The notes beneath the pieces were generated by a model, which saw only the letters and a list, made by a program, of their open reading frames with translations, did no database searches and was not told the origin of the DNA. Shown here one piece after another: positions 9,524 to 50,629 of a stretch of 64,000 nt of DNA. Location: positions 124,001 to 188,000 of the IMG/VR virus record IMGVR_UViG_3300045974_000132, one strand, 5' to 3'. Every line of letters begins with the position of its first letter. Position 1 is the stretch's first letter. This DNA is from a virus. Made by a program: the position numbers and the translations under genes.

Positions 9524-9542
9524 TAAATCACCTTCTACTAAA

Positions 9543-9552
9543 TACTAATTTA
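9543..9552 (+). promoter_or_regulatory. Promoter-like motif TACTAATTTA for the homing endonuclease
   Basis: Plus-strand TACTAATTTA lies 23 nt upstream of the ATG at 9576. It is the same motif, in the direction of transcription, found ahead of minus-strand HNH and STAS genes. A weak pairing of TCACCTT (upstream) with AAGGAGA (ribosome site) could partly mask translation. Confidence 0.55.
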
Positions 9553-9575
9553 ATTGTGTTATAAAGGAGAACATA

Positions 9576-33206: not shown

Positions 33207-33431
33207 CCGCTCACCTATTTTGGTAATAAGGACTCCGTCATTATCAGGAGAGTGAGCGGCTTAACAAACCAAAGTCTGTTAGTGACCCCATCCGTTTAGG
33301 TGCTGTTAGGCAGCCTTCCGGAAAGACGCATCATTCGCGGCAATTACAAGTTTAGCCCGGTTTAACGAGAGTACAATGCTCGGATCGTTCTTTATCAACT
33401 ACTCATGCCCAATCGAAACCAGGTCAGGCCC
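33206..33431 (-). ncRNA. ssrA: Permuted tmRNA, coding piece
   Basis: The 5' end GGGCCTG (33425-33431) is followed by a tRNA-like D region ACCTGGTTTCGAT, the signature of tmRNA 5' ends. A resume GCG (33336-33338) opens a tag frame reading ANDASFRKAA then TAA (33306-33308). GGGCCTG pairs with CAGGTCC of the acceptor piece, with the G3-U70 wobble needed for alanylation. The 3' limit is uncertain; a 9-bp stem (GCCGCTCAC/GTGAGCGGC, 33206-33260) may be its last pseudoknot or a separate terminator hairpin. Confidence 0.82.
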
Positions 33432-33508
33432 ATCAGGATCGTTCTATGTATCACCCACCCCGGTGACCTCAGCCTTGCGGTAGGACCTTTCGGCACACAG
33501 AACGATTT

Positions 33509-33600
33509 TGGTGGACCTGGGGAGAATCGAACTCCCGTCTTGAACACTTTTATTTCAAAAGTCTCATAAGCAAAGTTGTTCCGGTAGCTAATCGGCTTTA
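33509..33600 (-). ncRNA. ssrA: Permuted tmRNA, acceptor piece
   Basis: The 3' end has a perfect T arm (GGGAG TTCGATT CTCCC), acceptor strand CAGGTCC, A73 and encoded CCA (33509-33511). No matching 5' acceptor strand lies upstream, where the PEP-CTERM gene ends at 33647; the match is downstream at 33425-33431. This acceptor-before-coding order defines circularly permuted tmRNA, processed to two pieces. The 77-nt spacer would be removed. The 5' limit is approximate. Confidence 0.8.
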
Positions 33601-33646
33601 CTTACATACGATCATATTCCTTAACACGCCAATGATTACGTGTTAG

Positions 33647-34455: not shown

Positions 34456-34530
34456 TGGTTGAGGATGACGGGATCGAACCGACGACCCTCTGCTTGCAAG
34501 CAGAGGCTCTCCCAACTGAGCTAATCCCCA
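34456..34530 (-). tRNA. tRNA-Ala(TGC)-like with 6-nt anticodon loop
   Basis: Acceptor TGGGGAT/ATCCTCA with G3-U70, the alanine identity pair; D arm GCTC/GAGC; T arm with TTCGATC; encoded CCA. The anticodon arm TCTGC-TTGCAA-GCAGA has a 6-nt loop, one T short of a normal TGC loop. Anticodon could be read TGC (Ala) or GCA (Cys), but G3-U70 supports Ala. T stem has one mismatch. Function may be impaired. Confidence 0.75.
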
Positions 34531-35028: not shown

Positions 35029-35102
35029 TTTAGTTTACCTTTGACTTGAGAAACTTGATGGGTTGTGACAAGCTAGTGCCGACTGAGCTAAAACCCGAAA
35101 CT

Positions 35103-37242: not shown

Positions 37243-37318
37243 TGGTGCCCTGTGTCTGAATCGAACAGACGACCTCTCGCTTACTAGGCGAGTGCTGCTA
37301 CCTCTGAGCTAACAGGGC
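37243..37318 (-). tRNA. tRNA-Thr(AGT)
   Basis: Acceptor GCCCTGT/ACAGGGC, D arm GCTC-type, anticodon stem CTCGC/GCGAG with loop CTAGTAA (anticodon AGT), T arm GTCTG/CAGAC, encoded CCA. A34 in a threonine tRNA is rare in bacteria. Confidence 0.9.
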
Positions 37319-38109: not shown

Positions 38110-38146
38110 TGGTGCCCCCGGTCGGAATCGAACTGTTAACTGAGCT
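38110..38146 (-). pseudogene. 3' remnant of a disrupted tRNA (cassette A)
   Basis: Minus strand reads AGCTCAGTTAAC, a D-arm piece, joined to CAGTTCGATTCC, GACC, acceptor CGGGGGC, A and CCA. The anticodon arm is missing. The acceptor strand matches the 5' remnant GCCCCCG at 38882-38888, 740 bp upstream. Confidence 0.75.
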
Positions 38147-38154
38147 TGTGTATA

Positions 38155-38239
38155 TGGTGCTGAGGGCGGGACTCGAACCCGCGTGTCCTTTCGGAGCCGG
38201 ATTACAAATCCGGTGCTGTCGCCACTGAGCCACCTCAGC
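38155..38239 (-). tRNA. Class II tRNA with anticodon TGT
   Basis: Acceptor GCTGAGG/CCTCAGC, 3-bp D stem, anticodon stem CCGGA/TCCGG with loop TTTGTAA (anticodon TGT, Thr), 14-nt variable arm with TCC/GGA stem, T arm GCGGG/CCCGC, A73 and encoded CCA. Threonine tRNAs normally lack a long variable arm, so the charged amino acid is uncertain. It lies 3 nt after the HNH stop codon. Confidence 0.85.
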
Positions 38240-38242
38240 AAT

Positions 38243-38839
38243 TTAAACTTTCCTACCTCTAAAATAATCGAATGGGTTTATACCATAAGCTATAGCCCAT
38301 TTACGCACTGCGTTATCACTAACGCCGTAATGCTCACCCACCGCTACCCATGATTGCCTACTTAGGCGTTTCATAAGGTTTGCTTTACTTGGTTTTTTCT
38401 GAGTGCTACCCGCAATGAAACATTCTCGGTGAGAACTCTGACATACCGATCCGCAGTAGCTACTGTTGTCCGTAGGCATTTGACAGACTTTACAGCGGGT
38501 ACATTTTGCAAGAACTTTATCAATACAGCCGTTGTGTCGATACGAATAAATGCGGTGCTCAGAAAAGTACCCAATCGAATCAAGCCACCCATGAAGTTTG
38601 GCATGACTAGCACGGCTAAGAACTAGCAGGTTTGAAGGTGCATTATTTACCTTGTTAAGATCAAGATGGTGTACGTGTTCCGTGCGCTTTAGAGGTCGTC
38701 CTAGCGCCCGCTCTGCCACCAAGATATGCTCATAGACATACCCTTCATAAGCACCTGACTTATCGGCCCGGTCGTGAGTCGGCTGCCAAACTAGCAAGTA
38801 GCCCACATTATTTACGATCCGAACACGGTTGCGTATCAC
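38243..38839 (-). CDS. HNH homing endonuclease of tRNA cassette A
   Basis: 198 aa with GTG start (38837-38839) after AGAGG. HNH core: YEHILVAERALGRPL, HVHHLDLNKVNNAPSNLLVL; then Cys-rich zinc module (CTRCKVC, CGSVC) and C-terminal HTH (SWVAVGEHYGVSDNAVRKW). A 13-codon leader frame from ATG 38877 ends on a TGA overlapping the GTG, possible coupling. It sits between the 5' remnant of a tRNA and an intact tRNA, and is probably the mobility enzyme of this cassette. Confidence 0.88.
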   Translation of the reverse strand: MIRNRVRIVNNVGYLLVWQPTHDRADKSGAYEGYVYEHILVAERALGRPLKRTEHVHHLDLNKVNNAPSNLLVLSRASHAKLHGWLDSIGYFSEHRIYSYRHNGCIDKVLAKCTRCKVCQMPTDNSSYCGSVCQSSHRECFIAGSTQKKPSKANLMKRLSRQSWVAVGEHYGVSDNAVRKWAIAYGINPFDYFRGRKV

Positions 38840-38877
38840 AGCGTTTCCTCTTCAAAATCAACTGCACGAATCTTCAT

Positions 38878-38888
38878 GCTACGGGGGC
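38878..38888 (-). pseudogene. 5' remnant of a disrupted tRNA (cassette A)
   Basis: GCCCCCGTAGC is the acceptor 5' strand plus the start of a D arm. Its seven acceptor bases pair perfectly with the 3' remnant at 38113-38119, and its final AGC recurs at the start of the 3' remnant, like a short target duplication. Confidence 0.7.
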
Positions 38889-38925
38889 AAATCGTTGACT
38901 ATATGTATTATTTTTACAGTTTGTA

Positions 38926-39231
38926 TCAGCTTGCCTTCGAGGATTTACTATAGTTATTCAAGGAAGTAAGCATATCATGCCACATACCCGAACCACCGCT
39001 TGTCGCCAGCGCCACGACTACAATCAGTACGTACTCGTTAAGCTTCAGGAATGTAAACTCAGGAGGACTAGCATAACAAAGTAATCCGCCTACAATGCCA
39101 GCGATGATCTGATACACAACACCGGGAACTTCGATCTTGGCTAGATGGACGCGCTTTAGAATATCGGTTACGCGCTCGGCTGCTACGCTTGTAACTGCAA
39201 AGTATGTTATAAGCTGAATAAGATGATCCAT
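38926..39231 (-). CDS. Small phage membrane protein, holin-like
   Basis: 101 aa from ATG 39231. Two to three membrane segments: LIQLITYFAVTSVAAERVTD, VVYQIIAGIVGGLLCYA and YVLIVVVALATSGGSGMWHD. The SGGSGxWHD ending is common in small phage membrane proteins near lysis genes, but no endolysin is in this window. Holin function is speculative. Confidence 0.65.
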   Translation of the reverse strand: MDHLIQLITYFAVTSVAAERVTDILKRVHLAKIEVPGVVYQIIAGIVGGLLCYASPPEFTFLKLNEYVLIVVVALATSGGSGMWHDMLTSLNNYSKSSKAS

Positions 39232-39241
39232 AGTTCCACCT

Positions 39242-39673
39242 TTAGGGCATATCAAAGAAAGTATCTGACAACCCAATTGCTTTTGCTTTAGCTCTTAGTT
39301 CATCACTAATGCCCGGTTCGAGCGTCCAAAAATCTTCAGGAGACTTAACTACTAGATCAGCCTTAGCAAAGCAAGGTTGTCCATAGATAGCAGTAAGCTG
39401 CTTTTCAGAGCTTACATACAAGGGCTTAGAAAAGAACTTCTTGGCACCACGACGGGTCTTAAACAACAATGAGTTAGGAACGCATGTTGCATCTACCTGC
39501 TCACTTGTGTAATATCGGCCTACGAGCTTAATACGAAGTTTAGGTTTGTATCGTGCATCACCCTTAGTGATACGAATGTTGCTTATAGTGCCTATGCTGC
39601 ATGTGAGGAATTTAGTATCGGCACCTGGTATCATAACGCTATGGTCAATTTCACGAACGTAGATTACACTCAT
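39242..39673 (-). CDS. Hypothetical protein, 143 aa
   Basis: Beta-rich N-terminal half and a C-terminal helix. Basic patch FKTRRGAKKFFSK. The start overlaps the upstream stop by 4 nt (ATGA). No family. Confidence 0.6.
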   Translation of the reverse strand: MSVIYVREIDHSVMIPGADTKFLTCSIGTISNIRITKGDARYKPKLRIKLVGRYYTSEQVDATCVPNSLLFKTRRGAKKFFSKPLYVSSEKQLTAIYGQPCFAKADLVVKSPEDFWTLEPGISDELRAKAKAIGLSDTFFDMP

Positions 39674-39933
39674 TTGAAGCCTGCATCAAAGAAGGTGTTT
39701 AGCAGCCAGCGTTGAAACCAAGACTTGGCCTGAACTAACTTCCACCCTTCTTGCTGGGCACGCCAGGACGGATGAAACACGCCGGTGTTGCACTCAATCA
39801 CAGCAGATCGTATGTCGGCACCCGAGTGATAAACACAACAAGCTTGATTGTGTTCGACAACGATACCTAGGTCGAGAAACTCAGGCTTGCGAGGTTGTAG
39901 ATTGCCGTAAGCTAGTTTTAAATTGTTAGTCAT
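39670..39933 (-). CDS. Hypothetical protein, 87 aa
   Basis: Aromatic-rich small protein (SWFQRWLLNTFFDAGFK at the end), with Cys and His mid-protein. Coupled to both neighbours by 4-nt overlaps. Unknown. Confidence 0.6.
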   Translation of the reverse strand: MTNNLKLAYGNLQPRKPEFLDLGIVVEHNQACCVYHSGADIRSAVIECNTGVFHPSWRAQQEGWKLVQAKSWFQRWLLNTFFDAGFK

Positions 39934-40196
39934 GACAACCTCTGAACGTTGTATAAAGTATGCCCATCATACTTGTAATAGTAAGGACCATAGTCAGGCA
40001 GAAGAGAGGGCACCCAGATTTTAACAACTGTCTCACCGTCATCATCGGAATACCCAAGTAAAGCTAAAGCTGCTGCCGCTGCTAGATAGTAGTTACCTGT
40101 TTTAACTGAGACCTGTTGTTCAGCACCCTCATTAATCCTAACATGAAAGGTGTTGAGTTTTAGTTTGAGTTTTTCTTCGTCATCATCAGAAGCCAT
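39930..40196 (-). CDS. Hypothetical protein, 88 aa
   Basis: ATG 40196 with GAGG. Acidic start (MASDDDEEKLKLKL), an alanine-rich helix AAAAALALLGY, and a Tyr/Pro-rich end. Probably soluble. Confidence 0.6.
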   Translation of the reverse strand: MASDDDEEKLKLKLNTFHVRINEGAEQQVSVKTGNYYLAAAAALALLGYSDDDGETVVKIWVPSLLPDYGPYYYKYDGHTLYNVQRLS

Positions 40197-40226
40197 CTTG
40201 AGCCTCACGTTCACGTTTATAGTATG

Positions 40227-40475
40227 TTAGTACCGCATACTCTTTCGATTACCCGGTAGATTCTTTAAGCCTTCACGCAACTGTTTAGCTCTAAGCTTCG
40301 GCTTCTCAGTAGGCTCAATAACTTCAGATTTAGGCAAATAGAAAGTTTGAATTCGATTGTCACGGTGGTGTGGACAATTGTAGCAACTACCTGTGATAGT
40401 TAGACTCTCGCTTTGCTTAAAGCAAGGTCCTGTGTATGCGCACCCAGTAACAGATATAGGAGAAGAACAAAACAT
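40227..40475 (-). CDS. Cys-rich protein, 82 aa
   Basis: Six Cys in the first 35 residues (CSSP, GCAY, PCFK, SCYNCPHH) look like a zinc or iron-sulfur binding knot; the rest is a basic tail. Follows tRNA-Ser. Confidence 0.6.
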   Translation of the reverse strand: MFCSSPISVTGCAYTGPCFKQSESLTITGSCYNCPHHRDNRIQTFYLPKSEVIEPTEKPKLRAKQLREGLKNLPGNRKSMRY

Positions 40476-40491
40476 ACACTACCTCATGTGT

Positions 40492-40581
40492 TGGCGGGAG
40501 CGGTGGGATTCAAACCCACGAATGTGTTTCCACATTGCCGGTTTTCAAGACCGGTGTATTCAATCGCTCTACCACACTCCC
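40492..40581 (-). tRNA. tRNA-Ser(TGA)
   Basis: Acceptor GGGAGTG/CGCTCCC, anticodon stem CCGGT/ACCGG with loop CTTGAAA (anticodon TGA), long variable arm ATGTG/CACAT, T arm GTGGG/CCCAC, G73 and encoded CCA. All features fit serine. Confidence 0.94.
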
Positions 40582-40588
40582 TAAAACT

Positions 40589-41713
40589 TTATGCCACTAG
40601 AACATCCCGCAATTTTGTTAGCATTTCAACCTGATGCTTGTAATGAGCTATCTCGAAGTCCAGTTGTTGAACAGCGAGTGTTATCTTGTTGCCTGCGATA
40701 GAACTAGGCGGAAAGTATTCGCTATTTTCAAACATCGTAACGCCAGGACTTTTAAGTACAGGACGTTCAAGAGTAGCATGACCCGCAACACAGCAACCTG
40801 ATGCTTCACCGATGGGACCTAAACTAGAAAGAGTCGTTTGTTGCCACTTAGGATCAGCTGCGATCATTGCATCATCAGCGGCAGTGAAGTCTTTATGTAC
40901 AACGGGCTCAATCTCTACCTTAGGCCGCTTTGAATCATAGTAAGCAGCAACAGTAGGGTACGGAAGCAACTCAGTGTCAGTAGCGAGTGTCTTATCAAAG
41001 GGATACGCAAACTTGTTAGACCACTTGAAGTAGGGCTTACGGAAGTCTGTATCGTTCTTGTCAGCATACCCTTGCTCTACAAGCTTGGTCATAACCGAGT
41101 ACAAAGAAGTCTTTGGACATTGCGTAATGGCAACCATATCGTCAAGTGTAAGAGCAGGCTCAGCACGGAACTTGAACAGAGCAAGAGCAGCAGCCCCCAG
41201 GCTCTTAGAGCGATGCAGATCACCGAATGGGAGACGCTTGTCACCTTGCACAACCTGTGTAGAGGCTTGAACTTGCTGGGTAGACATAGTTGCAATCTCC
41301 TTCAGAACGTCAGTAGGGCTTTCTACAACAAGAGCTACTTTAGTATTTGGGCCACTATCCGCAGGAACTTCATCATGCTTACCCGGAACTACTTTGAAAG
41401 AGGTTTCAGGAAAGGTCTCACGCAAACTCTTCGGTTCAAACTTAGCTTTGGATGCAGCCCAAGGGTCTTCTTTGCTACTAGTAGGAGTGGGCTGAATAGT
41501 GTCAGCATAATCCTTAGAGGTAGTGACAAGGAAGTGTAAGCCACTCTTGTTATACATCCAGCCTTGATGCTTGGCTGCATGAAGACCTAGAGACAGTTCT
41601 TGCTTCTCCCCAAAGGTCTTACACTTGGCCCAAAGAGCTTCGGTACTAATACCGATAGGATGTTGAGCTAAGACACTACGGAGTTCATCTTCTTGATCGG
41701 TAGAAAGTTCCAT
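40589..41713 (-). CDS. DNA-binding protein with two winged-helix-like regions
   Basis: 374 aa. The N-terminus (LRSVLAQHPIGISTEALWAK) and the middle (GAAALALFKFRAEPALTLDD, TQCPKTSLYSVMTKLVEQGY) look like winged-helix modules; a Pro/Ser-rich linker separates them. The C-terminal helix EIAHYKHQVEMLTKLRDVL may oligomerise. Possible transcription regulator. Confidence 0.6.
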   Translation of the reverse strand: MELSTDQEDELRSVLAQHPIGISTEALWAKCKTFGEKQELSLGLHAAKHQGWMYNKSGLHFLVTTSKDYADTIQPTPTSSKEDPWAASKAKFEPKSLRETFPETSFKVVPGKHDEVPADSGPNTKVALVVESPTDVLKEIATMSTQQVQASTQVVQGDKRLPFGDLHRSKSLGAAALALFKFRAEPALTLDDMVAITQCPKTSLYSVMTKLVEQGYADKNDTDFRKPYFKWSNKFAYPFDKTLATDTELLPYPTVAAYYDSKRPKVEIEPVVHKDFTAADDAMIAADPKWQQTTLSSLGPIGEASGCCVAGHATLERPVLKSPGVTMFENSEYFPPSSIAGNKITLAVQQLDFEIAHYKHQVEMLTKLRDVLVA

Positions 41714-41728
41714 AACAACCCCTGTTTA

Positions 41729-41917
41729 TTATTTTTTTGAGTATTGACGACGCTGATTAGGGCGCGTTAACACCCGTACAGCTACCTCCAGCGGAACACC
41801 CAAACAGCCACAAACTAAGGCAGCATCTTGAACAAAGCCCATTTCAGCTATTCGGATCGCTTTTTCAACTTCCCGTGCAGTTTCAAAATCAGTACGTTTC
41901 ACTTTAGCAGATTTCAT
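41729..41917 (-). CDS. Small helical protein under riboregulation, 62 aa
   Basis: Helical (RTDFETAREVEKAIRIAEM) with basic end. Its leader has a 9-bp hairpin with a promoter-like motif in the loop (41924-41970), a design shared with homing endonucleases and the STAS gene. Function unknown. Confidence 0.65.
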   Translation of the reverse strand: MKSAKVKRTDFETAREVEKAIRIAEMGFVQDAALVCGCLGVPLEVAVRVLTRPNQRRQYSKK

Positions 41918-41923
41918 AGTTAT

Positions 41924-41970
41924 ACCACATAAATTTTCTATAGAGCCTTAAATTAGAAAGCTTATGTGGT
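41924..41970 (-). promoter_or_regulatory. Leader hairpin with promoter-like motif in its loop
   Basis: ACCACATAA (minus, 41962-41970) pairs with TTATGTGGT (41924-41932), 9 bp, ending 6 nt before the ATG. TTCTAATTTA (41949-41958) lies between the arms. The remaining non-coding stretch to 42303 contains other hairpins (e.g. GTTCTATAT/ATATAGAAC near 42140) but no gene. Confidence 0.6.
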
Positions 41971-42303
41971 AAGACTCAGAAGTGCTTAACACCGTCTGAG
42001 TCAAACCGGTGTAGCTTGCGTTGTGCCAAGCAGCAATTCTCGATGGGATAGTATTGAGAAAAGCCGCATTGACTGCACCTTGCAAACTACTGATTATTCT
42101 CGCCTAAAGCGCATGGTCATCACCCTTATATAATGTTCTATATGTATGCTTGTATATAGAACCCTACTTAGATTTAAGAACTATATTAGACGTAACATTA
42201 AGTTACCCTCCAAAAGAGTTCGCTATGAGCGTAGCGGGAGCTTCTGTTCACAAGCTTGCCGGCCCGACTCTCACGGGCAGTACCTAGGGCGAAGAGTTAA
42301 AGA

Positions 42304-42738
42304 CTACTTCTTCTTTTTGCTACCGAACGTCATCTTCTTGTAGTCAGAAGGAACGACCAGAGCTTCGGGTTTGATACCACGCAACGAAGGCAGAGGCATC
42401 ACGATACCAGCCAGAGGCAAGTAGTTGGACGACTCGTTACCGTAGTCAATAGCAGTGTCAATATGAGCAAGCATACGCTGGGCTTCAGCGATAGAAGCAC
42501 GGGCATTACGAATCGCCACAACTTGCTGAAACTTGACCGTCTCTGCCTGGTCGATGATAGCGATGATCGAATCAGCAGCACGTTCTGCCTTTTCAACGTC
42601 ACGCTGCTCCAGACGCTTCTTCATAACCGCTTGCAAATGCTCAGGAAGCTTCTCGCTGACTTTGGCTTCCTTCGACAAGTCGGTGTCAGCCAGCATTGCC
42701 AAAGCTTCGAGATTGATTTGGTTGGTACAACACGACAT
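42304..42738 (-). CDS. Hypothetical helical protein, 144 aa
   Basis: Long helices (DVEKAERAADSIIAIIDQAE; RNARASIAEAQRMLAHIDTA) with a basic C-terminal tail. N-terminus MSCCTNQ has a Cys pair. Unknown role. Confidence 0.65.
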   Translation of the reverse strand: MSCCTNQINLEALAMLADTDLSKEAKVSEKLPEHLQAVMKKRLEQRDVEKAERAADSIIAIIDQAETVKFQQVVAIRNARASIAEAQRMLAHIDTAIDYGNESSNYLPLAGIVMPLPSLRGIKPEALVVPSDYKKMTFGSKKKK

Positions 42739-42757
42739 ACGTTTTCTCCTTGGAAAG

Positions 42758-42973
42758 TTATGTTTGCATTTCAGTTAAGATTACCTTAACGCCTTTAAGA
42801 CGTTCAGCAATCTCAGGATCAGACTTAGCCAATTTCTTAGCATTGTGAGTCTCACCTAGCTGGACTACAACTTCGCAGCCTAGAGACTCTAAATAATGAG
42901 CTATAGCAGCCATTGCATAGCCTTTACCGGACTTATCAGGCCCTTCAATACTCACTCTTAGAGTATCGGGCAT
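42758..42973 (-). CDS. Minimal P-loop protein, 71 aa
   Basis: RVSIEGPDKSGKGYAMAAIA is a clear Walker A (GPDKSGKG) as in nucleotide kinases, followed by a strand (CEVVVQLGE) and a strand ending VKVILTE. Only half the size of the smallest kinases; may be a remnant or a nucleotide-binding regulator. It overlaps no neighbour and precedes the PhoH gene's downstream end by 10 nt. Confidence 0.7.
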   Translation of the reverse strand: MPDTLRVSIEGPDKSGKGYAMAAIAHYLESLGCEVVVQLGETHNAKKLAKSDPEIAERLKGVKVILTEMQT

Positions 42974-42983
42974 ATTAAACTCC

Positions 42984-43802
42984 TTATGAAGTAGCTGCCA
43001 CTATATGAATAGAAGGAGCAGCAAGTTTTGCATACAACTCAGTCACACCGTTTTCTTTATACAAGTGCGACAAGAAGGAACGAACAAAGCCTGAACGAAC
43101 AATGTCTTCTAACTGAAAGACTGTTATTGGGATGTCAAAGCCATTACGTTGGGCAAAGGCATGCAACCACAAAAGCCCACTTTCTCCCTTTAGATCGTTT
43201 TGGAAGGGATCTCCAAGAAGTACAATACGACCTGACTCATAGCGAGTAATGATTGCGATCATGTCCTCTTCGTCAAGGTTTTGAGCTTCGTCAATGATTA
43301 CAAACTTGTTGATGAATGAACGCCCACGTACATACTCAAAGGGAAGCATTTCAATCTGCCCTTTGTTAAGCATGTAATCTACTTTAGGACCAAGATGGCG
43401 ACGTAAGCTATCAAGAATAGGCATTAGCAAAGGAGTCATCTTATCTTCTTTGCTGCCTGGCAAGAAACCTACTGTTTCACCGCGCAACACATTAGCGCGT
43501 GTTAGAACAAACCCATCAACAAGGTCTGCTAAAAACATCTGAGCAGCAACCCCTGCTGCACAGTATGTCTTACCTACGCCCGCTGGCCCAATTGCCGCAC
43601 ATACTTCACTGTCCTTAAGAGCATTGATAAAATGACGCTGATTAACAGTCTTGGGAAGGAGTTCAACACGCCACGATTCGCGCTCACGAAACTTTTTATG
43701 CTTCTCACTTTCGGCTATACGCTCAAGATCCCGCTGCGTGTCACGGAGTCGACTCTTATTAGAGGACTTAGGGATACTCTTGACCTTATTGCTGCGCGCC
43801 AT
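42984..43802 (-). CDS. phoH: PhoH-like ATPase
   Basis: 272 aa. Walker A IGPAGVGKTYCAAGVA, Walker B VIIDEAQNLDEEDM, and GRIVLLGDPFQND are diagnostic for PhoH. N-terminal 55 residues are a basic extension. Common in marine and freshwater phages; precise role unknown (RNA metabolism suggested). Confidence 0.93.
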   Translation of the reverse strand: MARSNKVKSIPKSSNKSRLRDTQRDLERIAESEKHKKFRERESWRVELLPKTVNQRHFINALKDSEVCAAIGPAGVGKTYCAAGVAAQMFLADLVDGFVLTRANVLRGETVGFLPGSKEDKMTPLLMPILDSLRRHLGPKVDYMLNKGQIEMLPFEYVRGRSFINKFVIIDEAQNLDEEDMIAIITRYESGRIVLLGDPFQNDLKGESGLLWLHAFAQRNGFDIPITVFQLEDIVRSGFVRSFLSHLYKENGVTELYAKLAAPSIHIVAATS

Positions 43803-43861
43803 ATTGAACCTTTGATGATATGGGAGGAAGAAACTTTAAACTCTGTACGACTCTCAGGTGG

Positions 43862-44141
43862 GGTCTAGCTTGCAAGGCCAAACCACACGAGGCAGTCGTG
43901 CACAACTACTTCTATTCACTAGAGCAAGGTAATAGCTTACCTATTAATCTATGCTAGGTTGCTCTAGCTAACCGTCCGACCTTTGGCTGTCGTCCCCGCT
44001 CAAGCTGGCTTCACTGAGTTTCCTCTCCACTGTCTCGATCTGCTGCTCCGAAGAGCTTCAACAAGGACACGCTTGACCCACTGTGCAATCTAAATACTCA
44101 GCTAGACACCTAAGGGGATAGGTACCGGCTTATGCTAGACC
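43862..44141. ncRNA. Possible large structured RNA in a 558-nt non-coding region
   Basis: The region 43803-44360 has no gene. GGTCTAGC (43862-43869) can pair with GCTAGACC (44134-44141), enclosing 264 nt with an inner CTAGAGCAA/TTGCTCTAG stem at 43919-43968. The rest of the gap ends in a hairpin near 44340-44370 (CGCC/GGCG). Evidence is structural only. Confidence 0.35.
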
Positions 44142-44360
44142 GTTACAAGTATTCGATAAGATTAACAACTTTCCATCGACGTACCCTAGCGCGTATAACG
44201 AAATCACGGCTCCAACATTGTAAGACTTTCCAATCATTGCTTAAACCGCTGTACCCTGGCCGGGGCCTTCAATTCTGCTATACTCGGGCTATTCGGTAAC
44301 TGACTACACAGACTACTCTTGCATTTTTCGGTGGTGGCCTTTAATGTGCGCCTCACGGCG

Positions 44361-44600
44361 TTAAGGTTTCTGCAATTTTTGTATTTCTTCAAATCTACCT
44401 AAAGCTGTGGCCAGTTCAGCGCGAGCTTTACCCACTTGCTTTTCAGCAACACCGTATAGGTGCGCATGAGCAGCATCCCAAGTGTCGAAGCGTAAAATTT
44501 CGCGCATCGCAGGAGGATTAAAGTCAGACGCAACCTCTTCACGACTTATATTAGTTGATATACCTGGGTAGCGTAAAACAAATTGAATTTTAGTATCCAT
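44361..44600 (-). CDS. Hypothetical protein, 79 aa
   Basis: ATG 44600 lies one base past the NTase stop with AGGT before it. C-terminal helix VGKARAELATALGRFEEIQK. Possibly the partner of the nucleotidyltransferase-like gene, to which it is coupled. Confidence 0.6.
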   Translation of the reverse strand: MDTKIQFVLRYPGISTNISREEVASDFNPPAMREILRFDTWDAAHAHLYGVAEKQVGKARAELATALGRFEEIQKLQKP

Positions 44601-44601
44601 G

Positions 44602-45180
44602 TTAACTACCTGCGCGTCGTTTTGCATCGTTAAACTTAGATAACTGATCTTCAGTTAAGAACTGTTCCCAGCCCTCTAAGATTAGATCCGGATGAGAAGA
44701 CAAGATTGAAACAATGTCATTCAAGTCTTTGAACTCGCGCTTCAACGTGTTAGCACCAAACAACTTTAGAACAACCATTGCCTCCTTAGAAGCAACAAGT
44801 ATCCCGTCATGGTTTACTGCGGTGTGTATCACCTTCTTAGCAACGGGTATAGGTAGTTCAATTGAAGCAGGTGTTGTAAGCTCAATATCAACCTGCGTTT
44901 TGTTTTCTTGAAAGGCACCTGGCCTATAACGCTTGAAGCCCTTGACTTCAGTAGGTACTAAAGCTTTACTAAGAAACAGAAGGTCTACGTCTTCAGTGTA
45001 ACGAGGCTTTGCATAGAAAGACATTGCAAGTCCGCCGATTAAAACACCGGGAGCTTCTGTACCTACTTTAGATTTAATCCAAGCAAGTAAAGCATGTTGC
45101 ACTTCAGGAACTAAGGCTACATGCTTTACCTCAGATACTGCCGACGCATACACAGACATGTTACGAAGTATCAGTTCCAT
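44602..45180 (-). CDS. Nucleotidyltransferase-fold protein (AbiEii/DUF6036-like)
   Basis: 192 aa. VLIGGLAMSFYAKPRYTEDVDLLFL has the GG...DxD pattern of minimal nucleotidyltransferases, with a third acidic residue in KTQVDIELT. Related proteins act as toxins (AbiEii type) or tRNA-modifying enzymes. Here it lies beside a tRNA cassette and a small coupled gene, so a tRNA-related or defence-related role is possible but unproven. Confidence 0.75.
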   Translation of the reverse strand: MELILRNMSVYASAVSEVKHVALVPEVQHALLAWIKSKVGTEAPGVLIGGLAMSFYAKPRYTEDVDLLFLSKALVPTEVKGFKRYRPGAFQENKTQVDIELTTPASIELPIPVAKKVIHTAVNHDGILVASKEAMVVLKLFGANTLKREFKDLNDIVSILSSHPDLILEGWEQFLTEDQLSKFNDAKRRAGS

Positions 45181-45274
45181 CGTTGCTCCTAAAGAAAGAA
45201 GACCGGGCTTCCACCGGCAGCAAGATTAAGCCGAAGCAACCTCTCTGCGTCAGATTTGGTATCCGACGACTTTC

Positions 45275-45311
45275 TGGTAGGCCCGGTCAGACTTGAACTG
45301 ACGACCAAATA
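45275..45311 (-). pseudogene. 3' remnant of a disrupted tRNA (cassette B)
   Basis: Minus strand has T arm GTCAG TTCAAGT CTGAC, acceptor strand CGGGCCT, A73 and CCA, with no 5' half. Acceptor matches the AGGCCTG remnant at 46059-46065 (one G-U). It starts 16 nt after tRNA(CAT). Confidence 0.8.
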
Positions 45312-45326
45312 CTTAAACTAACTTAG

Positions 45327-45401
45327 TGGGCCCAACTGGATTTGAACCAGTGACCCTCCGGTTATGAGCCGGGCGCTGCTAACCAACTGAGCTATAGGCC
45401 C
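45327..45401 (-). tRNA. tRNA(CAT), Met or Ile2
   Basis: Acceptor GGGCCTA/TGGGCCC, D arm GCTC, anticodon loop CTCATAA (CAT), T arm ACTGG/CCAGT, A73; the 3' end reads CTA, so CCA must be added. Elongator Met and lysidine-modified Ile2 cannot be told apart by eye. It begins 1 nt after the HNH stop codon. Confidence 0.9.
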
Positions 45402-45402
45402 T

Positions 45403-45993
45403 CTAAGTAAGCTTTCGTCCTCTACCTAGCTTAGGCAATAGAGTACGGCAAATTTTGGTATAGCTGCTTTTAACATGACTATAAGTATCACCGCGCAACA
45501 TTGAGAACAGGGTAAGAGGATGCACATCTAACTCTTCTGCTAGTTCATGATGGGACAATTCATACTCAGAAAAGTATTTCCTAAGGCGTTTAACTTCACT
45601 ATCTAAAAACTTTGAATTAGGTCTAAGCTCACCTCGAGGATCAACGCGCAAACCTGTTGCCAGTGCGTGTTTCACATTACCGGAATTAGTTGTCAATTCA
45701 AGATTTGTTAATCGACAGTTAGCTTTAATCCCATCACGATGGTTTAACTGTAGTTCAGAGTCCTCTGGTATCCCCTTAAAGTGCGCCCATACAAGCCGGT
45801 GCAATTGTATCTGACGAATCTTTTTAGAGTTAGGATCTTGCCAAGATAGCTTTCGATATCCTTTTGAAGAAGGAGTCTTAGCTACTTCCTTACCTGAAAT
45901 CAAATTAAAAGCTTTACCAGACTTCGTAACTTTTAACTTACCTGAGTTTATCAGGCTAAGAAAGAAGCGTTCATTTCTAAGGTTTGCCGCCAT
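45403..45993 (-). CDS. HNH homing endonuclease of tRNA cassette B
   Basis: 196 aa. Core IQLHRLVWAHFKGIPEDSEL, QLNHRDGIKANCRLTNLEL is a typical HNH_3 motif; an HTH follows (YELSHHELAEELDVHPLTLF). Expression is likely late through the motif at 46024-46033, whose hairpin arm is part of the upstream tRNA remnant. Ends next to tRNA(CAT). Confidence 0.88.
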   Translation of the reverse strand: MAANLRNERFFLSLINSGKLKVTKSGKAFNLISGKEVAKTPSSKGYRKLSWQDPNSKKIRQIQLHRLVWAHFKGIPEDSELQLNHRDGIKANCRLTNLELTTNSGNVKHALATGLRVDPRGELRPNSKFLDSEVKRLRKYFSEYELSHHELAEELDVHPLTLFSMLRGDTYSHVKSSYTKICRTLLPKLGRGRKLT

Positions 45994-45999
45994 GAGGTT

Positions 46000-46044
46000 A
46001 GAGCAGAGTAGTGGTATAGCTCATAAATTAGTATCCTCTGCTCT
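46000..46044 (-). promoter_or_regulatory. Hairpin with promoter-like motif upstream of HNH gene (cassette B)
   Basis: AGAGCAGAG (minus, 46036-46044, inside the tRNA remnant) pairs with CTCTGCTCT (46000-46008) just before the ATG. TACTAATTTA occupies 46024-46033 between them. The cassette uses tRNA sequence as half of its own riboregulator. Confidence 0.6.
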
Positions 46045-46065
46045 GACCAACTGAGCTACAGGCCT
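46034..46065 (-). pseudogene. 5' remnant of a disrupted tRNA (cassette B)
   Basis: AGGCCTG TA GCTC AGTTGGTCA GAGC A GAGGA: acceptor, complete D arm and 5' anticodon strand of a tRNA, then the sequence switches to the promoter-like motif. No 3' half follows until 45311. Confidence 0.8.
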
Positions 46066-46075
46066 AAAACTTTAT

Positions 46076-46225
46076 AAGGTTGCTTACATTCTCGATCACC
46101 TACCACCAGTAAGTCAGTGTCGATAGTTGTGATACGCTCAACGTGCAGCCCACAACTCCTATGCACGTTAAAGCTCAACTTCATCTGGACTATACATCGA
46201 CCAGTCTAGGTGTTAAGCAAACCTT
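46076..46225. ncRNA. Stem-closed RNA element upstream of cassette B
   Basis: AAGGTTGCTTA (46076-46086) pairs with TAAGCAAACCTT (46214-46225, one bulge), enclosing 127 nt with a further CGTGCA/TGCACG hairpin. It lies between the second ACP stop and the tRNA remnant. Confidence 0.5.
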
Positions 46226-46496
46226 ATTGGGTAGCAGCAGCTTCGTAATAATATTCCTTGAAGTGCTTTAAGAAATCTGACAGCGTAGATTTGATAGTCA
46301 CCTTAGGGCGGAAGCTATCGTCAAGCATCGTATTAAAGGTTTCTTCAACAAGAAGGATTAACTCAAACATGTCCATCGAGTCTAAATCTAAGCCTTCTAA
46401 AGTATCAGACAGACTTGCTTTGCAGGAACGATCATCTGAAAACAGTTTCAGGAATTGCTCTTGCAAAACATCTTCTTTCAGTTTTAAATTAGTCAT
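46224..46496 (-). CDS. Second acyl carrier protein-like gene
   Basis: 90 aa, a bare ACP fold: TLEGLDLDSMDMFELILLVE holds the pantetheine Ser (DSMD) and EETFNTMLDDSF and TLSDFLKHF complete the bundle. Distinct from the ACP at 26794-27186 and without an extension. Phages with ACPs are known but two copies are unusual. Confidence 0.85.
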   Translation of the reverse strand: MTNLKLKEDVLQEQFLKLFSDDRSCKASLSDTLEGLDLDSMDMFELILLVEETFNTMLDDSFRPKVTIKSTLSDFLKHFKEYYYEAAATQ

Positions 46497-46553
46497 AGCA
46501 CAAATGAAGAAACAGGATGACCGAAGCCACCCTGTTTATCAATACCTCGAAGG

Positions 46554-46928
46554 TTACTGACGGGACTTGCGTGAAGACTTCTTGCCATCCTTGGAACCGC
46601 GCGAAGACTTTTCGGCCTTCTTCGGTTCAGCAGCAGCGGCCGCTTTCTTAGCAGCACGGGTAGAAGTCTTGGCCGGAGCAGCAGCCTTAGCAGGAGCAGC
46701 TTTGGCAGCAGCAGCAGCAGCTTTGGCCGGGGCAGCTTTGGCGGTTGCCGCAGCAGCACGGGTAGAGCGAGCCGGAGTCTTTTCGCCAGCGGTGCCGATT
46801 GCCGAAGATTGAGCAATAGTTTGATTGACAGCTTCGACAGCATCAGCAACAGCCTTCTTGGCAGCGTCGATAGCTTTGTTGGCAGCAACCAGAGAAGAAA
46901 TAGCCTTCTTGAGAGTACGAGAATTCAT
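46554..46928 (-). CDS. Histone H1/HctB-like Ala-Lys-Pro-rich protein
   Basis: 124 aa. An N-terminal helix (LKKAISSLVAANKAIDAAKK) is followed by repeats of AAPAKAA and SSRGSKDG-type basic sequence, like bacterial H1-type DNA-condensing proteins. pI is very high. A GC-rich hairpin lies between it and the next gene. It probably binds phage DNA. Confidence 0.75.
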   Translation of the reverse strand: MNSRTLKKAISSLVAANKAIDAAKKAVADAVEAVNQTIAQSSAIGTAGEKTPARSTRAAAATAKAAPAKAAAAAAKAAPAKAAAPAKTSTRAAKKAAAAAEPKKAEKSSRGSKDGKKSSRKSRQ

Positions 46929-47016
46929 TGTTGTATTCCTTATATATGTAAAGTTGGGGAGAACATTACGCCCTCCCCTTTAAAACAGACTACTTGGTTA
47001 GTGCAATGAGACGGAA

Positions 47017-48111
47017 TTACTCGTCGTCATCACCCCAATCTTCGTCATCTTCTTCATCATCTTCTTCATCATCTTCTTCGTCGTCGGAGTCTTCATCATC
47101 CTCGTCATCTTCTTCGTCGTCGTCGGAGTCTTCATCATCCTCGTCATCACCTTCTTCGTCATCTTCTTCATCATCTTCTTCGTCGTCGTCGGAGTCTTCA
47201 TCATCCTCGTCATCACCTTCTTCGTCGTCGGCATCTTCATCATCGCCGTCTTCGTCGTCATCACCTTCTTCTTCGTCGTCCTCGTCTTCTTCCTCAGCAG
47301 CCTTACGACCTCGCTTGGCTTTCGGAGCAGCGACTTCAGCAGCAGACGCATCTTCTTGGGAGAAGACTTGAACTTCGACGCCTGCATCATTGTTGGTGTT
47401 GATGATAACGGTTTCGCCATCAGTCGTCGTAACCTGAATCAGGCCGCCTTCCAGTTGCGAAACTTCGCCTTGATACTCGGCCAGCGTGACCGTCTTGTAA
47501 ACGTACAGCGTTGCGTCTTCACCTTCGTTGCCCTTGATAGAGACAACATCCTTCAGCGGGAAGGTAGAGACTTGGACACGCTTGCTGCGTTCCTTAGCAT
47601 GACGGAACACGACATTCTCGGTAGAGAACGAAACGAGTTGACCTTCAAGCTGAACAACCAGGCGGCTGACAAGAGCGATTTGCTGACCTTCGTCAACGCC
47701 CTTGGAAGCCTTGGAACCGCGACGCGGAGCCTTGGTAGCTTTTTCGGTTGCAGCAGCGCCTCGACGCGAAGACTTCGCCGGAGCAGCTTTTGCAGTACGT
47801 GTAGTCTTGGCAGGAGCTGCCTTTGCAGCAGCGGCACCACGACGGCCACGAGCCGGCTTTTCTTCAACTTCTTTTGCAGCACGACGACCACGTGCCGGCT
47901 TTTCAGCGGCAGCAGCCTTGCTTGAGCGAGTAGAGCGTGCCGGCTTTTCAGCAGCGGCAGCAGCGCCACGACGACCACGAGCCGGTTTTTCTTCAACTTC
48001 CTTTGGTGCGCGACGACCGCGAGTAGAGGTCTTTTCAGCGGCAGCAGCGCCACGACGGGTTGAGGTCTTTGCCGGGGCAGCCTTGGAACTACGGGTTGAT
48101 GCACGAGCCAT
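47017..48111 (-). CDS. Tripartite basic-globular-acidic chromatin-like protein
   Basis: 364 aa. Residues 1-150 are repeats of EKPARGRR, SSKAAPAK and similar, strongly basic. Residues about 155-270 form a beta-rich globular domain (VSRLVVQLEGQLVSFSTENV; TLYVYKTVTLAEYQGEV). The last about 90 residues are almost only Asp and Glu, with repeated DEDDEDSDDDEE units. A basic end plus acidic tail resembles histone chaperones or HMG-like proteins, here in one chain. Shares EKPARGRR repeats with 50734-51789. Confidence 0.7.
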   Translation of the reverse strand: MARASTRSSKAAPAKTSTRRGAAAAEKTSTRGRRAPKEVEEKPARGRRGAAAAAEKPARSTRSSKAAAAEKPARGRRAAKEVEEKPARGRRGAAAAKAAPAKTTRTAKAAPAKSSRRGAAATEKATKAPRRGSKASKGVDEGQQIALVSRLVVQLEGQLVSFSTENVVFRHAKERSKRVQVSTFPLKDVVSIKGNEGEDATLYVYKTVTLAEYQGEVSQLEGGLIQVTTTDGETVIINTNNDAGVEVQVFSQEDASAAEVAAPKAKRGRKAAEEEDEDDEEEGDDDEDGDDEDADDEEGDDEDDEDSDDDEEDDEEDDEEGDDEDDEDSDDDEEDDEDDEDSDDEEDDEEDDEEDDEDWGDDDE

Positions 48112-48219
48112 TTGTTACTCCTTGTTGATAAAGGTTTGTTGTATTACGTTTGTTACAACTGTTATTTACAGTTTTCGGGAAAACCCAAATTGTACTTCGG
48201 GTAGAACTACATCGGACAA

Positions 48220-49290
48220 TTATTCGTTGTCGTCTTCTTCACCGGCAGCTTCTTCTTCCTCGTCCCCTTCGTCTTCATCTGCAAAGACATGAGAGAACAG
48301 AAGAATATCAGTACCGTTGACGAACAAGCTGTCAGCGTCCTTCGGACTGATCCACGGTTCCTTGCCAAGAGACACAGAATTACGTGACACCAGAGCAAAG
48401 CCTTCTTCCGGAGAAAGAAGGATGTCAAGCAATTCACGATTTTCAGGTTCTTGCAAAGAGTCGCTAGAGATAGCAACACCGACGTATGGGTTTAGAACTT
48501 CTTCGCCCATCTTTTCCAGGATACCGCGAACGAACGAGATAGCACGGATGATGAACTTGTGCGGTTCAGGCGAATCGTACAGCGCCGCTGCATTGATGAC
48601 CAAGTTGAGATTGATAACCGAATTGACAACGCTGGTCTCTTCGTCGAGAGCAACAACTGTCCAGGTCTTCAACGTGAACAGGTCTCCGAACTTGAGGTCG
48701 AAGTCAGTGCCGTCCACGACCAGTTCAAGAAGTGTTTCATCTTGAGAAAGCGGGAACTTGCGAAGAATATCACGTACCAGGCCTTCAGCGACTTGCTGCA
48801 CGATAGGTTGCAGATCGACGGGCTTGCCGATATACGAGACTTCACGATTTTGTGCAGCACGAACGATATTGACGATCTTGCCGAAGACACGACGCAGAAC
48901 GCCTTCGCTCAGATTCTTGGCGCCGTTTGCCTTCAAGAACGGATTGTGAAAGTTGAAAGTTTCTTCGGTGCCCGGTGTTACTTCCAGCGTAACAGACTTC
49001 AGTTCTTTCAAACCCTTCATGTACGGAGTACCGTAGCTGAGGGTAACGAACGGAAGAACCGTGATCGTATTGATCGAAGGAGCATTGAGAAACTTCAGCT
49101 CCTGCGCGATTTCTGCGTCGAGCGGATCGACAACAACAACGGGTACGGGAGTAGCAGCACTGATACCGCCGATAGTAGCAATCGGCTTTTCAGGAGCAGC
49201 ATCAGCAGCTTGAGCAGCCAGCTGTGCGTCAACCTTCACGAGACCCGCGTCAAAATTCACGGCACCTTGATGATGTTCAGTTTGAGACAT
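48220..49290 (-). CDS. Hypothetical protein, 356 aa, acidic tail
   Basis: Ala/Val-rich N-terminus, then a mixed domain of about 280 residues (FVTLSYGTPYMKGLKELKSV; LLELVVDGTDFDLKFGDLFT) and an acidic tail (DEGDEEEEAAGEEDD). Possibly an abundant internal or structural protein, given its position in the chromatin-like cluster. Unknown family. Confidence 0.65.
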   Translation of the reverse strand: MSQTEHHQGAVNFDAGLVKVDAQLAAQAADAAPEKPIATIGGISAATPVPVVVVDPLDAEIAQELKFLNAPSINTITVLPFVTLSYGTPYMKGLKELKSVTLEVTPGTEETFNFHNPFLKANGAKNLSEGVLRRVFGKIVNIVRAAQNREVSYIGKPVDLQPIVQQVAEGLVRDILRKFPLSQDETLLELVVDGTDFDLKFGDLFTLKTWTVVALDEETSVVNSVINLNLVINAAALYDSPEPHKFIIRAISFVRGILEKMGEEVLNPYVGVAISSDSLQEPENRELLDILLSPEEGFALVSRNSVSLGKEPWISPKDADSLFVNGTDILLFSHVFADEDEGDEEEEAAGEEDDNE

Positions 49291-49360
49291 TTAAAACTCC
49301 TTGTCGGTAAGGATAAACAAAATGTTACTAGACGATATTTACAGATTTTACTACCTGCCG

Positions 49361-49999
49361 TTATTCAATAAGAAAACGGTAATAATGCCCACTATAGTTT
49401 TCGCCGGTAGTGTAGTATTGACCCATATCAGCGATAGACTTCACAGAGGTTACAGCTAAAACTTTTATTACAAAACCTACTTCGTCGACTTCAATAGCAG
49501 ATACGGTTTTTCCTTTCTGCAAAGCTTCACCTATTCGACGAACCCAAAAGCCACGACCCCGTGTAGATTGCGTGTTGTCGCTAATAATCTTAGAATACTT
49601 CGGATAGAGTCGATTGGTAAACAACCATTCAGGCAGGTTGGTAGTAAGATCGTAAGCTCCGTTTCGCCACACACTAACTTGGCCACACGCTTTGCTATGA
49701 AGCTTCCCTGTAAGATCGTAGTGTCGAACTCGTGCACCGTATTGAATCATGTCGGGGTCGTCACCTATATTAGCATGAACAAAATAGAAATCGGCTCCAC
49801 CATCCTCCACCAGCAACACAGGTACCTTGCCACCTGTTGCAGTATAGGTTGCAACTACTTCGGCACGTTTAAGCAAAGACTTCAACTTTGCTGCGTTCTT
49901 TGCCTTGGACCTAGACCATTCTGGCTTGTACGTTCCTTCAAGCAAGTACGGCATAGAAAGAGATATGTGAGGAGTAGCAACAGTGAGAGATAGTTCCAT
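49361..49999 (-). CDS. Hypothetical protein, 212 aa
   Basis: Mixed domain with basic segment WSRSKAKNAAKLKSLLKRAE and the sequence SDNTQSTRGRGFWVRRIGEA, reminiscent of conserved phage proteins of unknown role. Followed by the tRNA-Leu cassette C upstream on the genome map. Confidence 0.6.
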   Translation of the reverse strand: MELSLTVATPHISLSMPYLLEGTYKPEWSRSKAKNAAKLKSLLKRAEVVATYTATGGKVPVLLVEDGGADFYFVHANIGDDPDMIQYGARVRHYDLTGKLHSKACGQVSVWRNGAYDLTTNLPEWLFTNRLYPKYSKIISDNTQSTRGRGFWVRRIGEALQKGKTVSAIEVDEVGFVIKVLAVTSVKSIADMGQYYTTGENYSGHYYRFLIE

Positions 50000-50018
50000 A
50001 TTGCATCCTTTAAATAAG

Positions 50019-50027
50019 TGGTGCCCG
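50019..50027 (-). pseudogene. 3' remnant of a disrupted tRNA (cassette C)
   Basis: CGGGC A CCA: five acceptor bases, discriminator and CCA remain. They pair with GCCCG of the 5' remnant at 50625-50629. Short, so weaker alone than cassettes A and B. Confidence 0.5.
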
Positions 50028-50038
50028 TAGCACTTTAT

Positions 50039-50123
50039 TGGTGGGCGGAAAGGGACTCGAACCCTTACACCTTGCGGCTGCGGGTTTTAAGCCCGCTGCG
50101 TCTACCGATTTCGCCACCCGCCC
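50039..50123 (-). tRNA. tRNA-Leu(TAA)
   Basis: Acceptor GGGCGGG/TCCGCCC, anticodon stem GCGGG/CCCGC with loop CTTAAAA (TAA), long variable arm GCCGCAAGGTGT, T arm AAGGG/CCCTT, A73 and CCA. Begins directly after the HNH stop codon (0 nt). Confidence 0.94.
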
Positions 50124-50595
50124 TTAACATCTATAGCCAGTTAGAGCATTACCGTACTGGTTTGCTTTGAAGTACCTAGAGCGGCATGAGTGGGAGCAGA
50201 ATGCAACCTTAACACGCTTCTTAGAATAAACTTCTCGAACAAACCCAGAACACTTTGCACAATAAAGCTTTACTGGTTTTCCGTAAAGCTGGACTTGCTG
50301 CTTTTTACGATTCTTAGTTCCAGATAGCAACTGAAGATTACGAAACTTATCATTTCTAAAGTTGCCGTCTTTGTGATCTACTTCTTCAGCGGAAGTTAAA
50401 AACCGACCAAGCTTTATTTCCAACTCTAGCATATTGCCTAGCTGTCCGTTTCACGCTATCGTACAGGATAACGATCTTTCGTCCATCTTTTCTTTTATAC
50501 GGGCCGTACACCTTAAACGCATTTCCGTACAAAGCAACAAAGTCAGTGTAAAAAGTTGAGTACGGCTTACACTTTGTTTTAGACTTTGCTGGCAT
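50124..50595 (-). pseudogene. Frameshifted HNH homing endonuclease of tRNA cassette C
   Basis: Two overlapping frames join near 50427. The first (50386-50595) gives YGPYKRKDGRKIVILYDSVK then TARQYAR; the second (50124-50432) continues with LELEIKLGRFL, VDHKDGNFRNDKFRNLQLL and a Cys zinc module (CAKCS, CSHSC). Together they make one typical HNH homing nuclease. One indel breaks it, by decay, programmed slippage or sequencing error. Confidence 0.8.
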
Positions 50596-50605
50596 TTTGG
50601 TCCTT

Positions 50606-50629
50606 TGTTACCAATTTCCCCACCCGGGC
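50606..50629 (-). pseudogene. 5' remnant of a disrupted tRNA-Leu-like gene (cassette C)
   Basis: GCCCGGG TG GGGAAATTGGTAAC is an acceptor strand and class II D arm like tRNA-Leu, then the sequence turns into the HNH ribosome site AAAGGA. No continuation as tRNA. Confidence 0.7.

Follow-up and report, generated by a model that had tools for sequence, protein, structure and literature searches.

Analysis of a 64,000-nt window (bases 124001–188000 of a 286,393-bp virus contig) revealed three loci, at 38, 45 and 50 kb, in which a transfer RNA (tRNA) gene was split by an insert composed of an HNH endonuclease gene and a second, complete tRNA gene. Such cassettes are likely the product of free-standing homing endonucleases which invade tRNA genes and bring along a dissimilar replacement with the same anticodon ("home and rescue"). 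The first-pass annotation, made from the letters alone, had described the order shared by the three loci on the minus strand (5' piece of a tRNA, HNH gene, complete tRNA, 3' piece of a tRNA) with a spacing of 0–3 nt between the HNH stop codon and the complete tRNA; its coordinates proved correct, and the spacing was 3, 1 and 0 nt in loci 1, 2 and 3, respectively. The key point absent from it is that the complete (cargo) tRNA and the broken one share their anticodon, and because of this identity its suggestion of a replacement tRNA is stronger than was then apparent.

The seven tRNA genes found in the contig were all located inside the window, as was a transfer-messenger RNA (tmRNA) gene. The remnants of the broken tRNAs were compared with 175 complete tRNAs. 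In locus 1, the 5' remnant GCCCCCGTAGC (38878–38888, minus strand, as all features of the three loci), unique in the 286-kb contig, was only 11 nt long, the T stem of the broken tRNA had lost its 5' strand, and the acceptor strand CGGGGGC of the 3' remnant TTCGATTCCGACCGGGGGCACCA (38110–38132) paired with GCCCCCG at seven of seven positions. Between them, the HNH gene (38243–38839, phrog_15471), encoding a protein of 198 amino acids with HNH_3, zinc-ribbon and C-terminal helix-turn-helix parts and alignable with PHIKZ296-type proteins, was followed by an 85-nt tRNA-Thr(tgt) with a long variable arm (38155–38239; ARAGORN; Rfam tRNA score of 62.4 bits). Thr(tgt) was also the best match of the remnants (30/34, runner-up 22).

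Locus 2 comprised the 5' remnant AGGCCTGTAGCTCAGTTGGTCAGAGCAGAGGA (46034–46065), with tRNA-Met(cat) as its best match, an HNH gene coding for 196 amino acids (45403–45993, phrog_59 group), a complete tRNA with the CAU anticodon, Met or Ile2 (45326–45401; ARAGORN; Rfam 59.4 bits), and the 3' remnant GGTCGTCAGTTCAAGTCTGACCGGGCCTACCA (45275–45306). The two remnants paired in the acceptor at 7/7 positions, one G-U among them, and were closest to tRNA(cat) (42/64, next other 33.5), an assignment with which a phage-wide search agreed; a phage-wide search with the locus 1 remnants, which were too short, was uninformative. Part of a tRNA D arm was noticed as an inverted copy immediately before the HNH start of locus 2 (46000–46060, minus strand), and it could form a hairpin with the 5' remnant; this hairpin was weakly stable relative to shuffled sequences (z of -1.9) and was given no weight.

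Locus 3 was the weakest and the most eroded of the three. Its tRNA-Leu 5' remnant GCCCGGGTGGGGAAATTGGTA (50609–50629) was 21 nt long, and its 3' remnant CGGGCACCA (50019–50027) consisted of 9 nt of the acceptor end. The HNH gene was frameshifted, its N-terminal part (50386–50595) being in a different reading frame from its C-terminal part (50124–50432, phrog_14913), and the complete tRNA was a tRNA-Leu(taa) (50039–50123; ARAGORN; Rfam 59.5 bits), in line with Leu(taa) as the best match of the remnants (26/30). The acceptor pairing between the pieces, reported by the first-pass annotation for each locus, thus held fully in loci 1 and 2, and was weaker in locus 3 (5/7). Its other observations on the cassettes stood: the HNH proteins are not close copies, since they belong to three different phrog groups, and the complete tRNAs, each with an intact tRNA structure, differ between the loci. 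Pfam HNH_3, a domain of homing-type nucleases, matched all three HNH genes, in the case of the frameshifted locus 3 gene with a score under the cut-off.

Profiles of the phrog_15471 group were used to collect further loci from viral contigs and prokaryote assemblies, as scans with one HNH protein at a time, from locus 1 or locus 2, gave two and zero loci, respectively, and profiles were required. Seven additional cargo cassettes were found (L034, L035, L060, L112, L177, PA11 and L114), with the 3' half absent from L060 and the HNH gene placed antisense in L112. Cargo and broken tRNA had the same anticodon in 11 of the 11 cassettes in which both could be named, i.e., the three window loci, phage phiKZ, Kuravirus YF01, L034, L035, L060, L112, L177 and PA11. 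Beyond the window, the matches comprised Asn (phiKZ and L177), Arg (YF01 and PA11), Thr (L035), CAU (L034, backed by a separate comparison, and L112) and Pro (L060). Full agreement had a p of about 1e-6 under label permutation, and two random phage tRNAs shared the anticodon in 3.5% of pairs.

These numbers bear on the view that the inserts are ordinary tRNA-targeting homing endonucleases and that the complete tRNA is a passenger from the donor tRNA cluster without a rescue role. Three HNH genes which split a tRNA and lack a cargo tRNA (L103, L247 and L276) are in its favor, and so is phage T5, in which free-standing HNH genes (F-TflI, F-TflII and F-TflIV; discovery by Akulenko 2004, as cited in PMC3326045) are likewise located among tRNA genes. 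The T5 hegC, hegD and T5.069 genes end inside, or at the 5' end of, complete tRNA genes, the junction being as in the window (L281:7345-9607 and 11953-12525; tRNA-Ser(GGA), tRNA-Gln(CTG), annotated as a pseudogene, and tRNA-Asn(GTT)); no split tRNA was found around the T5 HNH genes, and a replacement role does not appear in the descriptions of this system that were consulted. However, a passenger would be expected to match the broken tRNA in about 3.5% of cases rather than in all eleven, and the cargo is the part that is kept when the nuclease decays. This view was therefore considered unlikely.

The resident and cargo tRNAs were no more similar than unrelated tRNAs. Where both sequences were known (two cases), the identity was 62% and 68%, relative to a mean of 60% (standard deviation of 5) for random tRNA pairs with different anticodons and 67% for pairs with the same anticodon. 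Moreover, the cargo tRNAs of phiKZ (Asn), the window (Thr), L177 and L114 possessed a long variable arm, in which they differ from standard Asn, Thr and Ile tRNAs. A common anticodon loop in an otherwise different body is what a cut-resistant substitute would need. It is conceivable that homologous recombination between two tRNA genes imported the neighboring HNH gene, with the split as a by-product and the nuclease uninvolved, as conservation and clustering are typical of tRNA genes, and isoacceptors would recombine most easily. Such an origin is very improbable in view of the low identity of resident and cargo, of the preservation of both resident halves around the complete cargo in phiKZ and of the HNH lineages tracking their tRNA targets.

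In the HNH tree, supported pairs were formed by L035 and L103 (both splitting tRNA-Thr) and by L100 and L177 (both linked to tRNA-Asn), and a phiKZ-like Asn group including one Thr-adjacent member was also supported. The grouping of the lineages by target tRNA fits a sequence-specific invasion of particular tRNA genes.

The first-pass annotation had predicted that relatives lacking the HNH gene would carry an intact tRNA at the empty site. This was borne out for two homologous cassettes: PHIKZ296 is a homolog of the locus 1 HNH, and a Kuravirus HNH gene is one of the locus 3 HNH. In phiKZ, the order was tRNA-Asn 5' half, complete tRNA-Asn(gtt), HNH gene and 3' half. The insertion of about 770 bp was located in the anticodon loop of tRNA-Asn(GUU), which was intact at the same place in KEN51, SL2 and fMGyn. 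The comparison with KEN51 placed the break at tRNA positions 36/37, immediately after the anticodon; the breakpoints overlapped by 2 bp, and the flanks were 98–99.8% identical. Across the phiKZ-like records, about 10 sites were occupied and about 24 were empty with an intact tRNA-Asn(GUU). PA1C, BRkr and phiHQ also carried this cassette, and the tRNA-Asn that holds it has a compensated acceptor in these phages. A second HNH gene of BRkr (L022) follows a tRNA-Thr where the relative PS119XW has a tRNA-Asp; it had no remnants and was excluded as a cassette. In Kuravirus YF01, the first 30 nt of tRNA-Arg(UCU) were followed by an HNH gene, of a different family from that of phiKZ, and by a complete, dissimilar tRNA-Arg(UCU), and the resident tRNA-Arg(UCU) was intact in ShigP1, MN03 and SU10. 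The sporadic presence with uninterrupted alleles in close relatives, a trait of homing genes, was thus observed in both the phiKZ-like phages and Kuravirus. Inserts of this type occur in the window phage, a large phage, and in unrelated Pseudomonas and Escherichia coli phages.

The halves of phiKZ and PA1C, nearly intact and with paired acceptors, could also be taken for a real, trans-acting split tRNA as found in some archaea. We regard this as the least credible of the alternatives: halves were decayed or one of them was absent in the window, YF01 and L060, and cassettes of the cargo type always had a complete tRNA with the same anticodon.

Nuclease genes were found in decay next to cargo tRNAs that had been kept, one example being the frameshifted HNH gene of window locus 3. 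The phiKZ-type HNH gene had an N-terminal frameshift in all four occupied strains that were checked, and the PA1C-type copies were intact. In CHD5UKE1, the HNH region was truncated and the cargo tRNA-Arg was the sole tRNA-Arg there; in phage 124.01, the cargo was the only remaining tRNA-Asn of the region, and in L054 a truncated HNH gene was located beside an intact tRNA(cat). Invasion, fixation and decay form a pattern known for homing genes; the new part is that the substitute tRNA stays.

The co-occurrence of half-tRNAs with HNH genes elsewhere, also predicted by the first-pass annotation, was confirmed against chance controls. Among 185 non-redundant HNH genes, a split tRNA flanking the gene in the correct order with a score of at least 14 was detected in 13 loci, compared with none for permuted-order decoys. 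Five of the six remnant motifs of the window were single-copy in 286 kb, and CGGGCACCA had two copies. When the entire contig was scanned for 3' tRNA halves with a terminal NCCA, eight matches were obtained: five complete tRNAs, the tmRNA and, as the only remnants, those of loci 1 and 2. No tRNA was located near the contig's fourth HNH_3 gene. In five collected loci (L039, L042, L100, L101 and L107), the HNH gene adjoined a tRNA with no detectable split, and these were excluded from the cassettes.

The same HNH family was also encountered within group I introns, identified with Rfam, that interrupt tRNA(cat) genes at the anticodon (L099, L111, L178 and L179). Because of this, the inserts could be seen as group I introns, with a spliced split tRNA and an irrelevant cargo. 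However, no match to the group I intron model RF00028 was obtained in phiKZ, L034, L035, L177 or the 29–52 kb part of the window, only about 100–150 nt are left beyond the HNH gene and cargo, and the window halves are eroded beyond repair (11 nt in locus 1 and 9 nt in locus 3). This explanation was rejected as the cause of the cargo-type loci and can be given hardly any credence. One family of nucleases associated with the anticodon region thus keeps its target working by splicing or by a substitute, and some of its copies do neither. In a Bacteroidales metagenome-assembled contig (L178:2500-4300), three group I introns were located close together near a tRNA cluster, at least one of them with this HNH family.

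Two other classes of elements were considered and rejected. An integrase-type island was discounted, as the inserts consisted of HNH and tRNA genes only, with no tyrosine or serine recombinase, and showed no restored 3' end or attachment-site (att) repeats; phiKZ and KEN51 shared only the 2-bp overlap, and the cargo was complete but dissimilar. The features of a SegB-like element were not observed either, the nuclease domain being HNH_3 only, with no GIY-YIG nuclease.

Several points weigh against the home-and-rescue interpretation or limit its reach. The cargo tRNA is not obligatory for tRNA-splitting HNH genes, given the three HNH-only insertions. Within the family, a complete tRNA was located at a distance of up to 150 bp in 19 of the 27 strong members and a detectable split tRNA in 14 of the 27, prevalences which are biased upwards by the seeding of the HNH profile with tRNA-associated members. 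Several isotype calls were based on remnants of 30–64 nt, and those of PA11 and L112 were made by visual inspection in knowledge of the cargo. L114, with an Ile UAU cargo, was placed outside the eleven, since only its cargo could be named. The window phage has no close relative in the collections, and hence its own empty sites were not available: megablast against phages gave one tRNA match only, a PhoH search gave no viral contig, a phrog_2 terminase search gave nothing and no fetched locus was syntenic. In most occupied phiKZ strains, a second intact tRNA-Asn with the presumed target sequence was present about 2 kb away. This copy is explicable because the HNH gene of these strains is truncated, and the phages with a full-length HNH (PA1C, BRkr and phiHQ) had no second intact tRNA-Asn; the target may comprise more than the tRNA sequence, or the nuclease of the phiKZ strains may be dead. 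DNA cleavage, the target site, homing and functional rescue were inferred by us, which for cleavage and homing counts on the same side. The mobile module of the first-pass annotation, cutting a resident tRNA and carrying a replacement, was upheld with regard to the replacement, and the cutting would fit the arrangement; it does not extend to the HNH genes that split a tRNA with no cargo or reside in group I introns.

According to the home-and-rescue interpretation, the HNH endonuclease would recognize the anticodon-arm region of a particular tRNA gene and cut alleles without the element. During co-infection, repair from the element-bearing copy would insert the HNH gene together with the cargo tRNA, splitting the resident tRNA. 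The cargo, with the same anticodon and an unrelated body, would presumably escape the nuclease and restore the lost decoding, making the insertion nearly neutral. Afterwards, the nuclease and the half-tRNAs would decay and the cargo tRNA would be kept, so that the phage's own tRNA would end up replaced by a foreign isoacceptor. In a broader form, favored here with more reserve, the cassettes would be natural home-and-rescue drives, in which several HNH families independently paired a nuclease for one tRNA with a cut-resistant, unrelated tRNA of the same anticodon, spread and decayed, leaving the foreign tRNA as the sole supplier, which would help to account for the unusual tRNA repertoires of large phages.

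Homing elements persist by sparing the gene that they invade, and introns and inteins use splicing for this purpose. A complete substitute gene would be a third way of sparing the invaded gene. Unrelated HNH groups apparently use it on six or more kinds of tRNA, also in model phages such as phiKZ. It may explain why some phage tRNA genes are duplicated, fragmentary or oddly shaped, and calls for caution, as codon need and defense evasion need not be all that phage tRNAs reflect.

The closest working parallel is provided by the mobile open reading frames of fungal mitochondria (Allomyces atp6; Glomus atp6, atp9, cox2 and nad3), which bring a substitute C-terminus and leave the native end as a remnant (PMC3630166). 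In both systems an endonuclease element brings a divergent copy of the displaced part, in the phages a tRNA with the same anticodon and an unrelated body. The fungal elements, in contrast, concern mitochondrial protein genes with a C-terminus fused in frame, whereas the phage cassette carries a separate, complete tRNA gene. The anticodon target and the HNH family are shared by the group I introns with homing endonucleases that interrupt tRNA anticodon loops, but RNA splicing, and not a second gene, preserves function there. SegB of phages T4 and T6, a GIY-YIG enzyme whose cuts lie inside tRNA genes and which favors the inheritance or amplification of these genes (PMC13096335, PMC2988022), is also a free-standing homing endonuclease adjoining tRNA genes; it differs in the nuclease family and in its location between tRNA genes, and a split resident tRNA with an isoacceptor replacement was not reported for it. 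The cassettes may represent a natural counterpart of engineered home-and-rescue or cleave-and-rescue drives (PMC7968924), in which a nuclease is combined with a copy of its target gene that has been recoded to resist cutting; those are synthetic constructs based on clustered regularly interspaced short palindromic repeats (CRISPR) in insects, whereas the phage cassette is a natural element. No description of a split phage tRNA with an isoacceptor replacement was found in the searched literature, the coverage of which was incomplete, so that a prior description is possible.

Other features of the tRNA region were also noted, all on the minus strand. A lone tRNA 5' half, CGGGTTTTAGCTCAGTCGG, was located at 35079–35097; its partner 3' half was not found in the contig-wide scan, and it is perhaps a trace of an older event. 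A tRNA-Thr with an AGT anticodon, unusual for bacteria and phages, was present at 37243–37318, and a tRNA-like gene with an ambiguous anticodon loop (tgca, Ala or Cys) at 34456–34530. The tmRNA gene (33215–33601) was permuted (Rfam RF04321, 89.3 bits), with an additional match to betaproteobacterial tmRNA and the tag AANDASFRKAA, which suggests a betaproteobacterial host. A gene for an AbiEii-like nucleotidyltransferase (44602–45180) was located immediately downstream of the locus 2 cassette, and a match resembling a Twister-sister ribozyme (42215–42295) scored 30 bits relative to the Rfam threshold of 34. Farther away, a GyrB-like coding sequence (8800–12254) was found as two blocks lying about 1.1 kb apart (gap at 10.6–9.5 kb), and a GyrA-like block at 7.6–6.6 kb, both names being derived from the matched bacterial loci; these blocks possibly represent split genes or an insertion.

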